From the NCBI GenBank assembly GCA_958296105.1, contig OY282441.1, positions 3,110,773 to 3,174,772 of the forward strand: a stretch of 64,000 bases of DNA, written 5' to 3'. The stretch comes from an uncultured Dehalococcoidia bacterium (GTDB lineage: Bacteria; Chloroflexota; Dehalococcoidia; Lucifugimonadales; UBA1123). Position 1 is the first letter of the stretch; the number at the start of each line of letters is the position of its first letter. Positions 56,940-61,731 of this stretch are shown here, one piece after another. The position numbers and the translations under genes were made by a program. The notes below the pieces were generated by a model that was not told the origin of the DNA, ran no database searches, and worked only from the letters and a program-made list of their open reading frames with translations.

Positions 56940-57013
56940 GAATTCATCGTATCGAAAGGCAACTTAGCCACAGTCGAAACAGAGTGTGAGCCATAGCAAG
57001 GAGGTTGACAGAA

Positions 57014-57448
57014 ATGACGATGCAGAGATGGACACCGTTCGCGGAGCTGAGGCGCATGGACGAGGTCTTCGACAGAATCTGGAACGGCGACCTGCGCGAG
57101 GCGGGACACCGGATCGCACGCTGGGACTTCCCCATGGATGTCTGGCAGGAGGGCGACGACCTGATCGTGCAGGCTTCCCTGCCGGGGGCGAAGCCGGAGG
57201 AGATCAGCGTCACCATCGAGGACAGCCTTCTGACCATAGAGGGCGAGTCCAGCTCCGAGAGCGAGGAGCGGAAGGGAGACTATCTTCTGCGCGAGCGGCG
57301 CTCGGGGCGCTTCCACCGCTCGCTGCGCCTGCCCAGCTCGGTGGACGCGGAGAAGGCGACCCCGACCTACGAGAACGGCATCCTCACCATCACGGTTCCC
57401 AAGGAGGAGGCTAGGAAGCCCCGCCGGCTGGAGATAAAGTCCGGCTGA
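57014..57448 (+). CDS. Hsp20/alpha-crystallin family small heat-shock protein
   Basis: 144 residues from the ATG at 57014, with AGGAGG nine bases upstream; a TTG three codons earlier is possible. The N-terminus MQRWTPFAELRRMDEVFDRI is typical. The alpha-crystallin domain has FPMDVWQEGDDLIVQASLPG and DYLLRERRSGRFHRSLRLPS, and ends in YENGILTITVPKEEARK with a C-terminal tail for oligomerisation. It binds unfolding proteins without ATP. Confidence 0.95.
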   Translation: MTMQRWTPFAELRRMDEVFDRIWNGDLREAGHRIARWDFPMDVWQEGDDLIVQASLPGAKPEEISVTIEDSLLTIEGESSSESEERKGDYLLRERRSGRFHRSLRLPSSVDAEKATPTYENGILTITVPKEEARKPRRLEIKSG

Positions 57449-57477
57449 GTCCGGGCTGACCCGTCCACACCCATTCA

Positions 57478-57510
57478 GGGGGCGGCCAGAAGGTCGCCCC
57501 TTTTTTCTTT
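57478..57510 (+). terminator. Rho-independent terminator after hsp20
   Basis: GGGGCGGCC pairs with GGTCGCCCC over an AGAA loop (one G-U pair), immediately followed by TTTTTTCTTT. A classical terminator 30 bp after the stop. Confidence 0.9.
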
Positions 57511-57536
57511 GCGCGTTATAATGAACCGAGCCATCT

Positions 57537-57986
57537 ATGAACGAACGCCACGAACGCGAAACAATCTGGGGAATAGACCCCAGAGATAGAAAGTGGTTCC
57601 AGGTTCTGACTCTGGTCGTTGGAATCACGATTTCCGCAGTACTGACGCAGTTGGAGCTAAGCTACGGATCCGCGCCCAATCACATGGCGCGAAACATCGT
57701 TTTGGGAATCGGGGGGAGTTTCGTCGCGGCTGGGTTCTTCTCTTGGGCGATATTGCATAGCAAGGGGTTGATCATGGCAATGGCAGATTGGATCAGAGAG
57801 CAGACCGCAAAGAGCAGGAAGAAGAGAGAAAGGGAGTTGCAGGAGACGGCGCGAAGAAGTCGGCAGGAGGGCCTGCAGAAGGGCATTCAGGAGGGCCGAC
57901 AGGAGGGATACGCGCTTGGCTACGCCGACGCCAGAGCGGGAAAGCCGTCCCAGCCGCCTGATGACGTCGCCGCCATCTCTTCCTGA
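57537..57986 (+). CDS. Two-helix membrane protein with a charged C-terminal tail
   Basis: 149 residues: two membrane helices (QVLTLVVGITISAVLTQLEL and NIVLGIGGSFVAAGFFSWAI), then a charged stretch with REQTAKSRKKRERELQETA and a Gly-rich run GLQKGIQEGRQEGYALGYA. I recognise no family. The last 90 residues are repeated at the start of the adenosyltransferase gene 110 bp downstream. Confidence 0.6.
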   Translation: MNERHERETIWGIDPRDRKWFQVLTLVVGITISAVLTQLELSYGSAPNHMARNIVLGIGGSFVAAGFFSWAILHSKGLIMAMADWIREQTAKSRKKRERELQETARRSRQEGLQKGIQEGRQEGYALGYADARAGKPSQPPDDVAAISS

Positions 57987-58320
57987 ATCCAAGCGCGAGA
58001 CGGGGAACGAGACACCTGAGAACCTACACGCGATCAGGGAAGTTTCATCGCGGCTGTTTTCCTCCTTGGGCGACGCTGCATAGCAAGGAGTCGATCATGA
58101 CAATGGCAGATTGGATCAGAGAGCAGACCGCAAAGAGCAGGGAGAAGAGAGAAAGGGAGTTGCAGGAGACGGCGCGAAGACTCCGTCAAGAGGCATACAC
58201 GCTTGGCTACGCCGACGCCAGAGCGGGAAAGCCGTCCCAGTTTCCTGATGACGACGTCGCCAGCTTCTTCCTGAATACAAGCGCGAGATGGGGAACGAGA
58301 CACTTGAGAATCTACACGCG
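57713..58320. repeat. Partial tandem duplication joining two genes
   Basis: Copy 1 (57713-58037) and copy 2 (58038-58320) share the coding region of the charged tail and the first bases of the adenosyltransferase reading frame (CTACACGCGATCAGG occurs in both). Copy 2 lacks about 45 bp. The duplication unit spanned the junction between the membrane protein and the adenosyltransferase. Confidence 0.8.
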
Positions 58321-58867
58321 ATCAGGGGACGAAGGCGAGACGGGGCTGCTCTTTGGCGGCAGAGTCTCGAAGTCGGATATTCGCGCCGAAGCCTACGGCT
58401 CGACCGATCACGCCGTATCGGCGATCGGCTTGGCGCGCGCCATGTCAGTCGAGGACAGAGTGAAGGATGCGCTGCTCGACGTCCAGCGCGAAATGTTCAT
58501 GATCGGAGCGGAGCTCGCCACGCACACCGAGAACCGCGCCATCTTGCTGGAACGCTTCCAGATCGTCACCCAAGACCACGTCGCCCGTCTCGAATCTCTG
58601 ATAGACGAGATCGGAGAGCAGGTCGAGCTTCCGCCCAACTTCATCATCCCCGGCGCGTCTTCAGGCTCGGCGGCGCTCGACGTGGCGCGGACACAGGTGC
58701 GCACAGCCGAGCGGCGCGTAGTGGAGCTGCGCGAAGCCGGGCTGCTGCCGAACGTACACGTACTCATCTACCTGAACCGACTCTCGGACCTGCTCTTCAT
58801 GCTGGCGCGCTACGAAGACCGCCACCTGCCCTTCGAGATCGTAACCGGCGAGCCACCGCAGCAGTAG
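58097..58867 (+). CDS. PduO-type cob(I)alamin adenosyltransferase with a duplicated N-terminal extension
   Basis: 256 residues as read from the ATG at 58097, which has AAGGAG six bases upstream. Residues 70-256 are a PduO-type adenosyltransferase: LRIYTRSGDEGETGLLFGGR, RAEAYGSTDHAVSAIGLARA, LDVARTQVRTAERRVVELRE and the YLNRLSDLLFMLARYE end. Residues 1-62 copy the charged tail of the preceding membrane protein. A TTG at 58304 would give a normal 187-residue enzyme. Thus the gene was fused to a duplicated fragment and may now be translated as a chimera. It precedes hisH by 22 bp. Confidence 0.8.
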   Translation: MTMADWIREQTAKSREKRERELQETARRLRQEAYTLGYADARAGKPSQFPDDDVASFFLNTSARWGTRHLRIYTRSGDEGETGLLFGGRVSKSDIRAEAYGSTDHAVSAIGLARAMSVEDRVKDALLDVQREMFMIGAELATHTENRAILLERFQIVTQDHVARLESLIDEIGEQVELPPNFIIPGASSGSAALDVARTQVRTAERRVVELREAGLLPNVHVLIYLNRLSDLLFMLARYEDRHLPFEIVTGEPPQQ

Positions 58868-58889: not shown

Positions 58890-59510
58890 ATGGCGAAGAC
58901 GACCGTAGCGATAGTCGATTACGACGCAGGCAACTTGCGCAGCGTTCAGAAGGCGTTGGAGAAGTTCGGCGCGCGCGCCGAAATCACCTCGTCCGCCGCC
59001 GTGATCGAAGCGGCGGATGCGGTCGTCGTTCCCGGACAGGGCGCGTGCGACTCCTCGATGCGCAATCTGCGAGAGCGTGAGCTGGTCGACCCCATCCGCG
59101 ATTCGATAGCCAGCGGCAGGCCGTTCTTGGGCGTCTGTCTGGGCTTGCAGCTGCTCTTGGACGCATCGGACGAAGGGGAGGAACCCTGTCTCGGCATAGC
59201 GCGCGGCAGATGCAGACGGCTGCCCGGCGGCCAGAAGATTCCGCATATGGGATGGAATCAGGTCGTCTGGCGCAAGCAGCACCCCTTCTTCGAAGGCGTG
59301 CCGAACGGCTCGCACTTCTACTTCGTCCACAGCTACTACGCCGACCCGGAGGACTCGTCCATCATAGCGGCAGCCACCGATTACGGCGTGGAGTTTTGCA
59401 GCGCGGTAGCTTGGGACTCGGTGGCGGCGGTGCAGTTCCACCCGGAAAAGAGCGGCAGCATTGGTCTCAAGATATACGAGAACTTCGTGCGCTGCGCGAG
59501 CGAGCGCTGA
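58890..59510 (+). CDS. hisH: Imidazole glycerol phosphate synthase, glutaminase subunit HisH
   Basis: 206 residues. VAIVDYDAGNLRSVQKALEK, the nucleophile in PFLGVCLGLQLLLDASDEGE, the KIPHMGWNQVVW loop and the VQFHPEKSGSIGLKIYENFV His-x-Glu are present. It makes ammonia for HisF. It starts the his gene run, followed 3 bp later by hisA. Confidence 0.95.
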   Translation: MAKTTVAIVDYDAGNLRSVQKALEKFGARAEITSSAAVIEAADAVVVPGQGACDSSMRNLRERELVDPIRDSIASGRPFLGVCLGLQLLLDASDEGEEPCLGIARGRCRRLPGGQKIPHMGWNQVVWRKQHPFFEGVPNGSHFYFVHSYYADPEDSSIIAAATDYGVEFCSAVAWDSVAAVQFHPEKSGSIGLKIYENFVRCASER

Positions 59511-59513
59511 ACA

Positions 59514-60248
59514 GTGGAAGTAATCCCCGCAATAGACCTGATCGAGGGTAGCTGCGTTCGGCTGTACCAAGGCGATTACGCCCGGCAGACGGTGTACGCG
59601 GACGACCCCGTAGAGGTCGCTCGGCGCTGGGAGCGGCTCGGGGCAAGCCGCATCCACATAGTCGATCTGGACGGGGCGAGGATCGGAAGCCCGCAGAACT
59701 TGGACGTGGTAGCCCGAATCGCGCGCGCCGTCTCCGTCCCCATCCAGATGGGCGGCGGCGTCCGCGACCTGCGCTCGGCGCGCGAGGTCATCAGTGCGGG
59801 CGCGCAGCGCGTCATGCTCGGCACCGTCGCCGTCCGCGAACCCGACATCGTGCGCGATGCGTGCCAAGAGCTGGGGAGCGATGCGGTGGTGGTCGCCGTG
59901 GACTCGCGCGATGGATACGTGTCGGTGTCCGGCTGGATGTCCGACAGCCGCACGGAGGCGACCGACCTGATGCGCAGGATGATGGAAAGGGGCGCGCGGA
60001 CTTTCCTGTGTACCGATATATCGAGAGACGGAACGCTCCAGGGTCCGAACCATCGCTTGATGAGCGATCTCGTGAGGGTTGCCGGCGCGGGCGTGATCGC
60101 CGCCGGCGGAATCGCGTCCGTCGATCACCTGTCCCTGCTGGCAGAGGCGGGAGTTGGCGGCGCGGTGATAGGCAAAGCCCTCTACACCGGAGACATAGAC
60201 CTTGACGAGGCTCTGGACGCCGTCGCCAATCTGGAAAGAAAATGCTGA
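59514..60248 (+). CDS. hisA: ProFAR isomerase HisA
   Basis: 244 residues starting with [23 protein letters not shown] carries the first catalytic Asp and [17 protein letters not shown] the second. [15 protein letters not shown] and [20 protein letters not shown] are the phosphate-binding loops. It overlaps hisF by 7 bp. Confidence 0.95.
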
Positions 60249-61057
60249 CCAAGCGAATCATCCCATGCCTAGACGTGGATGGCGGCAGAGTCGTCAAGGG
60301 CGTCAGCTTCATCGAGATACGAGACGCCGGAGACCCCGTTCAGCTCGCCTCCTACTACGACGCCGAGGGCGCTGATGAGCTAGTGCTTCTGGACATCACC
60401 GCAAGCTCCGACTCGCGCGAAATCATGCTCGACGTGGTGCGCGAGGTGGCGGAGCGGCTGTTCATCCCGTTCACGGTCGGCGGCGGCATGAGGAGCGCGG
60501 CGGACGTTCGCCTGATGCTCGAAGCCGGCGCCGATAAGGTGTCCCTGAACACCGCTGCGGTGCAGAACCCCGATCTGGTAGGCGAGGCGTCCGACCACTT
60601 CGGCTCTCAGTGCATCGTGGTCGCCATAGACGCCACCGCAGTCAGACCGGGCGATCCGCCCGTCCCCTGCGCCGATCCCACGCTCGCGCTGGGCAGCAGC
60701 TCCCGCTGGCAGGTGTACATCCACGGCGGCAGAACCCCCACCGGGATAGACGCGCTCCAGTGGGCGATTCGCGCCGCAGATCTGGGAGCCGGGGAGCTGC
60801 TCTTGACCAGCATGGACACCGACGGACACCAGACCGGCTACGATCTGGACATGATTCGCCAGATATCCCAGACTGTGCCGATCCCGGTGATCGCCAGCGG
60901 CGGAGCCGGAACGCCCGACCACTTCTTGGACGCGCTGCAAGATGCCAAAGCCGACGCGGTGCTGGCGGCAAGCGTGTTCCACTTCGGCACGTATCGAGTG
61001 AAGGACATCAAAGACTTTCTGAGCGAGCGCGGCGTTCCCATGCGCCCGATAGATTGA
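60242..61057 (+). CDS. hisF: Imidazole glycerol phosphate synthase, cyclase subunit HisF
   Basis: 271 residues. The catalytic Asp pair lies in [18 protein letters not shown] and [35 protein letters not shown] and [20 protein letters not shown] are the phosphate loops. A short insert after [10 protein letters not shown] ([16 protein letters not shown]) makes it longer than the usual 250-255 residues. It closes the ring to IGP with HisH. Confidence 0.96.
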
Positions 61058-61110
61058 TATATAGTGAAATAGAGTGAACTTCCAGCCAGCTTTTCCGGAG
61101 GACAGCCATC

Positions 61111-61731
61111 ATGCCAACCGTTTTACTGGATGAAAAGGGTCTCGCGCCGGCAATCTGCCAGCACGCCGAAACCGGCGAGGTCATCATGCTGGGCTACGTC
61201 ACCCCCGGCGCGCTCAAGCGCACCCTGGAGGGCGGCGAAGTCTGGTTCTACTCGCGCAGCCGCGCCGACCTCTGGCACAAGGGCGAGGTCTCCGGAAACT
61301 ACATGAGGATCAGGTCCGCGTCCGTCGATTGCGACGGCGACGTGATCCTGCTCCAAGTCATCCCGGACGGCCCGATCTGTCATACAGGCAACCCCACGTG
61401 CTTCTTCACGCCGTTCGACGACCTGCCAGACTTCGAGTCTCCCGAGAAGGGCCCCGCCGTCTTGGAAGATCTGTTCTCCGTGATCCAGGATCGCAAACAT
61501 GCCATGCCCCAGGGCAGCTACACTGCCAAGCTGTTCGAGGGCGGCACGGACCGCATCGCGCAGAAGGTGATCGAGGAGGCGGGGGAAGCCGCCATCGCAG
61601 GGGTCAAGGGCGACCGTGACGCGGTGGCGTCCGAGATGGCAGACCTGCTGTACCACTCGCTCGTGATGATGTCCGCCGCCGGTGTCAGACCCGAGCAGGT
61701 ATGGGAAGCGCTGAGGGAGCGGCTAGGGTAG
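61111..61731 (+). CDS. hisIE: Bifunctional HisIE (PR-AMP cyclohydrolase/PR-ATP pyrophosphatase)
   Basis: 206 residues. The N-terminal cyclohydrolase has GEVIMLGYVTPGALKRTLEG and EVWFYSRSRADLWHKGE. Its metal Cys/His set is in VDCDGDVILLQV and GPICHTGNPTCFF. The C-terminal pyrophosphatase (from about residue 115) has LFEGGTDRIAQKVIEEAGEA with the Glu-rich metal motif. Two steps of histidine synthesis are joined in one protein. Gap of 53 bp after hisF. Confidence 0.95.
   Translation: MPTVLLDEKGLAPAICQHAETGEVIMLGYVTPGALKRTLEGGEVWFYSRSRADLWHKGEVSGNYMRIRSASVDCDGDVILLQVIPDGPICHTGNPTCFFTPFDDLPDFESPEKGPAVLEDLFSVIQDRKHAMPQGSYTAKLFEGGTDRIAQKVIEEAGEAAIAGVKGDRDAVASEMADLLYHSLVMMSAAGVRPEQVWEALRERLG

Follow-up and report, generated by a model that had tools for sequence, protein, structure and literature searches.

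The closest described systems are the Rpn genes, which encode a long form, RpnL, and, via an internal start, a short form, RpnS, that blocks it; the long form is toxic, the short form is its antitoxin and the system is anti-phage (PMC10327210). When M244 of E. coli rpnA is mutated together with its ribosome-binding site (RBS), RpnS is gone (PMC10327210). Rpn tails carry four-residue repeats of variable number and are annotated in some species as DUF4351 (PF14261), Rpn arrays originate by tandem direct duplication, and stand-alone RpnS genes sit 3' of their parents, for example ypaA after rpnE (PMC10327210). Gene copies are many and patchy per genome (Zhong et al. 2023, PMC10327210), and many more intragenic-encoded regulators are proposed to await discovery (PMC10327210). 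Cas11d, made inside cas10d, is another nested in-frame product (PMC10327210, introduction); like the short form that the genes described here would make, it is a second product read in frame from an internal start, but it is unrelated to them in sequence and context.

We describe a family of genes for proteins with two transmembrane (TM) segments and a charged tail, which would be a specific, testable case of the prediction made for Rpn. The family shares with Rpn (E. coli rpnA-E and ypaA) an in-frame internal RBS and start that would yield the tail alone, a tail with four-residue repeats of varying number (here 13 of 15 tandem copies differ in length by multiples of four residues), tandem arrays with stand-alone tail genes on the 3' side (here at 8 of 11 loci) and many, patchy copies per genome. 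However, two TM segments take the place of the YhgA-like/Rpn nuclease domain and, unlike in Rpn, one tail copy is fused to a metabolic enzyme, a cobalamin adenosyltransferase (ATR). No Pfam match to the nuclease domain (PF04754/TIGR01784) was found in the eight family members scanned, and TIGR01784 was present in none of 21 genomes searched and in 2 of 14 control genomes; E. coli RpnE, as a control, matched PF04754 at 9.6e-88. PF14261 gave no match up to E 0.1 in the eight members, where only weak Yae1_N matches appeared. With two TM segments instead of the nuclease and no TIGR01784 member, the family is therefore not filed as Rpn. A literature search returned the Rpn work and no membrane counterpart, an absence from that search and not a proof. 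By analogy, it is most likely that the two-TM family works like Rpn; the Rpn-like layout would then serve an effector of another kind, embedded in the membrane, in uncultured Chloroflexota related to SAR202. Against this, repeat-rich tails can converge.

The locus and its tandem duplication

The window, a stretch of 64,000 nucleotides, belongs to a genome assembled as a single 3.18-Mb contig, and the named relatives closest to it are metagenome assemblies of Dehalococcoidia/SAR202-type Chloroflexota. On the forward strand, an Hsp20 gene (57005–57448; PF00011, 9.7e-22), which also lies 5' of the ATR in related genomes, is followed by a terminator-like hairpin (57477–57502), by a TATAAT (57517–57522) that is the sole match with at most one mismatch between Hsp20 and the ATR, and by the full-length two-TM gene (57537–57986, 149 aa). 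The product of this gene has hydrophobic segments at residues 23–41 and 54–72, and 57537–57983 fits the family in its RESIW-like N terminus, two TM segments, tail and end motif near the stop, the GxPFDEPPP-like motif being degenerate (GKPSQPPDD); its profile match of 2.0e-46 is that of a sequence which is itself one of the profile's eight members. An internal RBS, AAGGGG, and an internal start, ATG 57774, lie within it (57762–57776). The ATR occupies 58304–58867, and the translations of the ORFs 3' of it (58890–61731) look like those of a his operon.

A 324-bp segment (57713–58036), comprising TM2, the tail, the stop, the former ATR leader and the first ATR codons, is repeated in tandem at 58037–58327, as the preliminary description had proposed for a duplication spanning the junction. 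The copies align in four direct-repeat blocks of 82–94% identity: 57713–57740/58037–58064 (82%, spacing 324), 57742–57870/58065–58193 (91%, spacing 323), 57896–57978/58183–58265 (88%, spacing 287) and 57978–58039/58266–58327 (94%, spacing 288). Since the units abut, and GGG(G) is common to both unit ends and the junction, the event reads as a microhomology tandem duplication. Copy 2 carries the small indels that had been held to remove the stop, namely a 1-nt deletion 5' of its own ATG, an in-frame 36-nt deletion (12 codons) among the tail repeats, and a 3-nt insertion with a 2-nt deletion just 5' of the old stop. Because of the resulting net +1 frameshift, the stop is gone and the tail is joined to the ATR: copy 1 ends at TGA 57984–57986, while the frame of copy 2 continues into an ORF of 256 aa (58097–58867). 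The fusion is thus in frame as claimed, but the extension before the TTG start of the ATR (58097–58303) is 69 residues long and not 62, about 56 of them tail-like and 13 derived from the former spacer. In copy 1 the counterpart of the ATR start (58016–58018) is CTG, not TTG, so that a vestigial ATR start there may be silenced.

Most two-TM family members stop shortly after the GxPFDEPPP-like motif, and the stop-bearing copy 1 therefore represents the ancestral condition, copy 2 being derived. The copies differ by dN 0.062 and dS 0.131 (dN/dS 0.47; 51 codons, 11 differences), whereas the ATR differs from those of congeners by dN 0.13–0.17, indicating strong constraint, and dS 1.2–2.3; the duplication is therefore younger than the split of the compared species. 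Neither the deficit of amino-acid changes between the copies (P 0.052, 51 codons) nor the difference in divergence 5' of the ATG (10/60) and in the ORF (17/206; p 0.09) was significant, so that these comparisons do not establish selection on copy 2.

Probable expression and predicted structure of the fused adenosyltransferase

The ATR is of the PduO type and, like others of its kind, has a complete domain above curated cut-offs (PF01923, 1.9e-50, profile positions 1–170 of 171; TIGR00636, 141.7 bits, cut-off 108.45). It keeps the invariant residues of a 32-sequence alignment. The genome holds one PF01923 match and no CobA/BtuR match, and this is therefore its sole ATR of these two families; an ATR is present in 55 of the 60 genomes searched, own included. 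Unlike the 54 related ATRs compared, it has an N-terminal helix and linker of 69 residues, and its promoter is displaced. The comparison with relatives that the preliminary description had called for found none of 54 related ATRs matching query residues 1–35, and a literature search returned no description of an N-terminal ATR fusion in the titles and abstract openings it covered, which is not proof that none exists.

An exact TATAAT lies 18–23 nt 5' of the ATR start in 7/7 same-family genomes, and within 75 nt in 33 of 59 distinct ATR upstream stretches (from 69 ATR loci). Here there is none directly 5' of the native start, the only one being that at 57517, before the two-TM gene. The native SD, GGGG, and the intact start TTG 58304 (58290–58306) are both present, as had been stated for the start, with an SD energy of −5.5 kcal/mol against −9.5 to −9.9 kcal/mol in three congeners. 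The tail copy does have the good ribosome site ascribed to it, AAGGAG 6 nt before ATG 58097 (58085–58099), at −6.6 kcal/mol; its gap to the native value is small. Since the ATR has no recognisable −10 box of its own and a weaker SD than its congeners, it is most likely now made mainly from ATG 58097, as the fusion, its promoter being displaced and the upstream RBS inherited. With the native −10 box lost and the native SD weakened, it is plausible that the chimeric protein is being made. An AlphaFold2 model (32 sequences, mean pLDDT 86.4) is confident in a helix at residues 3–35 and in the ATR core, with a disordered, low-confidence linker at 39–68, consistent with what is most likely a folded enzyme bearing an N-terminal helix on a flexible linker.

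Two candidate traces of the origin of this arrangement were considered. A target-site duplication left when the two-TM gene inserted might pair GAACCGAG near 57524 with GAACGAG of the ATR leader, but the likeness is inexact. Promoter capture, proposed from the resemblance of TATAATGAACCG at 57517 to the congener leader TATAATGACCG (L011), would imply that the two-TM gene inserted between the ATR −10 box and SD; TACAAG at 58276–58281, 22 nt 5' of the TTG and in the place of TATAAT in congener G001, points rather to decay of the native box where it stood. Either route leaves the ATR without its own −10 box. In many ATR genes of the group (L010–L090) TATAAT nearly touches the start codon, as in very short or leaderless messages.

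It is possible, though we judge it unlikely, that duplication and fusion are recent debris of a neutral accident, with the ATR initiated at TTG 58304 and the extension irrelevant. The 51 aligned codons stayed free of stops in 58% of simulations with the observed number of changes and landing in the ATR frame would add a further factor of about one third, so that an open frame alone is not improbable. The absence of a significant selection signal on copy 2 and the persistence of the native SD and TTG agree with this, and no test gave a signal of selection for the fusion itself, which is confined to this genome and could thus be recent and neutral. Against a neutral accident, the native −10 box is missing where 7/7 same-family genomes keep TATAAT, the start on the 5' side is an ATG whose SD is slightly stronger and whose role is inherited, and the conserved internal start of the two-TM family described below would be left unexplained.

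Among 84 distinct family ORFs, five extend more than 60 residues past the family match, and only that of the window reaches a recognised enzyme; the ends of the long-extension ORFs at L099, L114 and L150 are unassigned or degenerate, and the remaining one, at L163, belongs to a different protein (below). Those at L114:1477 (minus strand) and L099:1477 run 95 and 195 residues, respectively, beyond the match and are possible other fusions.

The internal start of the two-TM family

Members of the family consist of two TM segments and a charged tail and lack a Pfam domain; PHROGs, PADLOC and Pfam returned weak, repeat-driven matches only. The eight-member profile (A2) has 25 matches in the genome itself. 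Of 40 relatives, 9 have a match at E 1e-3; in the class, 9 of 294 genomes do so at E 1e-10, and in the phylum 6 of 301 at E 1e-8, the own genome being counted each time. From 95 loci, members with both TM part and tail were aligned after removal of those more than 75% identical, leaving 40, of which 39 were counted as L132 is gapped at the key column. At this one column, just after TM2, an in-frame start codon is found in 37/39 (30 ATG, 5 GTG, 2 TTG), the other two having an ATG one codon 5' of it; at any other column of the alignment start codons reach at most 28%. The SD duplex 5' of the internal start has a mean energy of −9.33 kcal/mol, compared with −5.68 (s.d. 0.37) in 1000 synonymous recodings that used the family's codon usage (z −9.9), and 38 of the 39 members reach −6 or below (recodings: mean 18.7, maximum 27). 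The residues encoded at the SD stretch differ (GRFA, WRNI, GGFI, KENLV, VRYT), and it is therefore the DNA motif that is conserved and not the peptide.

This is supported by two-TM loci from outside the class, collected afterwards, in which the internal start is ATG in 7/7 and its SD the best of the gene in 6/7. As a negative control, 39 ATRs treated by the same procedure gave z 0.2 at their best SD column and no start codons. The proven sites of E. coli served as positive controls, with −7.1 for rpnA M244 and −7.1 for rpnE M244, the Met at which ypaA starts; in neither gene is the proven site the best-scoring SD. The internal start also divides the protein, with at least two hydrophobic segments before it in 34/39 members at the threshold used, none after it in 39/39, and with 42% charged residues after it versus 15% before. 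The internal start is conserved across the two-TM family, and the tail's own RBS, noted in the preliminary description, is neither new nor accidental; it is inherited and recurs at other loci. From its anatomy, each family gene most likely gives rise to a long form that is anchored in the membrane and, separately, to a charged helical tail that is free.

The purine-rich motif might not be a start but a place where ribosomes pause, to the benefit of membrane insertion, or one where recombination copies the tails. SD-like pauses in the mRNAs of membrane proteins have been proposed; the motif lies directly after TM2, and truncated copies have their beginnings close to it, in several cases (L125, L132, L136, L138, L150) precisely at the ATG. 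Neither role would need a start codon at fixed spacing, yet one is present in 37/39 members, including GTG in all five valine cases, and the duplication ends range from the ATG itself to well 5' of it, which makes this explanation improbable.

Two loci of other Chloroflexota, L163 and L164, were excluded as members, their N-terminal parts being unassigned and only the repeat tail common; L163 encodes a different protein that has the tail alone in common with the family. Both (L163:940–2022, L164:838–1818) have a long non-membrane N-terminal part and an EGREEG-type repeat tail, with no Pfam domain at E 0.01 save a weak Yae1_N, and are possible Rpn-like nucleases.

Tail copies in the genome and the probable origin of the fusion

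Eleven loci of the genome were examined, the window and ten others, L124 being judged from its ORFs only. Tandem copies occur at all but L129, and N-terminally truncated ones at eight loci, where there are 11 such copies (one each in the window and at L125, L126, L128 and L130; two each at L122, L127 and L131). None of the 11 has lost the internal start codon, and the SD survives in 10, the exception being the L125 copy, which starts 3 nt after the stop of its parent; tail copies beginning exactly at the internal codon are also found in several other genomes (L132, L136, L138, L150). For 13 of 15 copies, the difference in tail length to the first copy of the array is a multiple of four residues (binomial p 9e-7 against 1/4), the exceptions being the L128 copy and one L131 copy; the two tails in the window are 12 residues apart.

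As the internal start is conserved in the family and truncated, start-bearing copies recur in this genome, copy 2 probably existed as a tail gene of its own before it became a fusion; by analogy, an RpnS-like free tail gene minus its stop is the best reading of it. The earlier proposal that the duplication fused a membrane-protein tail to the ATR thus stands as regards the in-frame chimera, with fusion probably a separate, later step. Tail copies could also be silent cassettes from which recombination varies the coil of the full-length gene, the ATR fusion being a by-product. Such cassettes would share both ends, vary in repeat-unit number and lie in tandem with their parents, as the copies do, but would have no need of the start codon and SD that are retained; we give this little credence. 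That the fused frame, seen in one genome only, is an assembly or sequencing error is highly improbable, since the net +1 results from three inserted and two deleted bases with substitutions close by, and not from a homopolymer slip, and the ATR 3' of the junction is clean and strongly constrained.

We consider it fairly probable that a family with nested tails had its tail copied and that a free copy was fused into the ATR, probably tagging it. Two-TM genes hold a conserved internal RBS and start just after TM2, and the 324-bp duplication took in TM2, the tail with its stop and the opening codons of the ATR. Without TM1, copy 2 would have become a free tail gene, as are the RpnS copies 3' of rpn genes, until the net +1 frameshift deleted its stop and placed it in frame with the ATR, which would then be made mainly from ATG 58097 and co-transcribed with the two-TM gene. 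We infer, in analogy with Rpn, that the short tail holds the long form in check by binding the latter's tail; given such tail-tail binding, the tagged ATR may also bind the membrane protein. The locus would then capture a rarely caught step, in which a free regulatory tail copy enters a metabolic enzyme in frame and probably takes over its expression. More speculatively, and rather doubtfully, the two-TM family may be a membrane counterpart of Rpn, its long form a membrane toxin and its nested tail an antitoxin amplified by tail-only copies, one of them welded to the sole ATR. If so, making a needed cofactor enzyme would also make the antitoxin, or the ATR would dock at the membrane.

Just 5' of the four-copy family array at L131 lies a perfect 71-bp tandem direct repeat (L131:1223–1364; G000:C1 near 2999530). 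At L127:1287–2562 the tandem copies lie within long alternative frames that stay open for 291 and 301 aa from stop to stop, and the sequence is repeat-rich in other frames.
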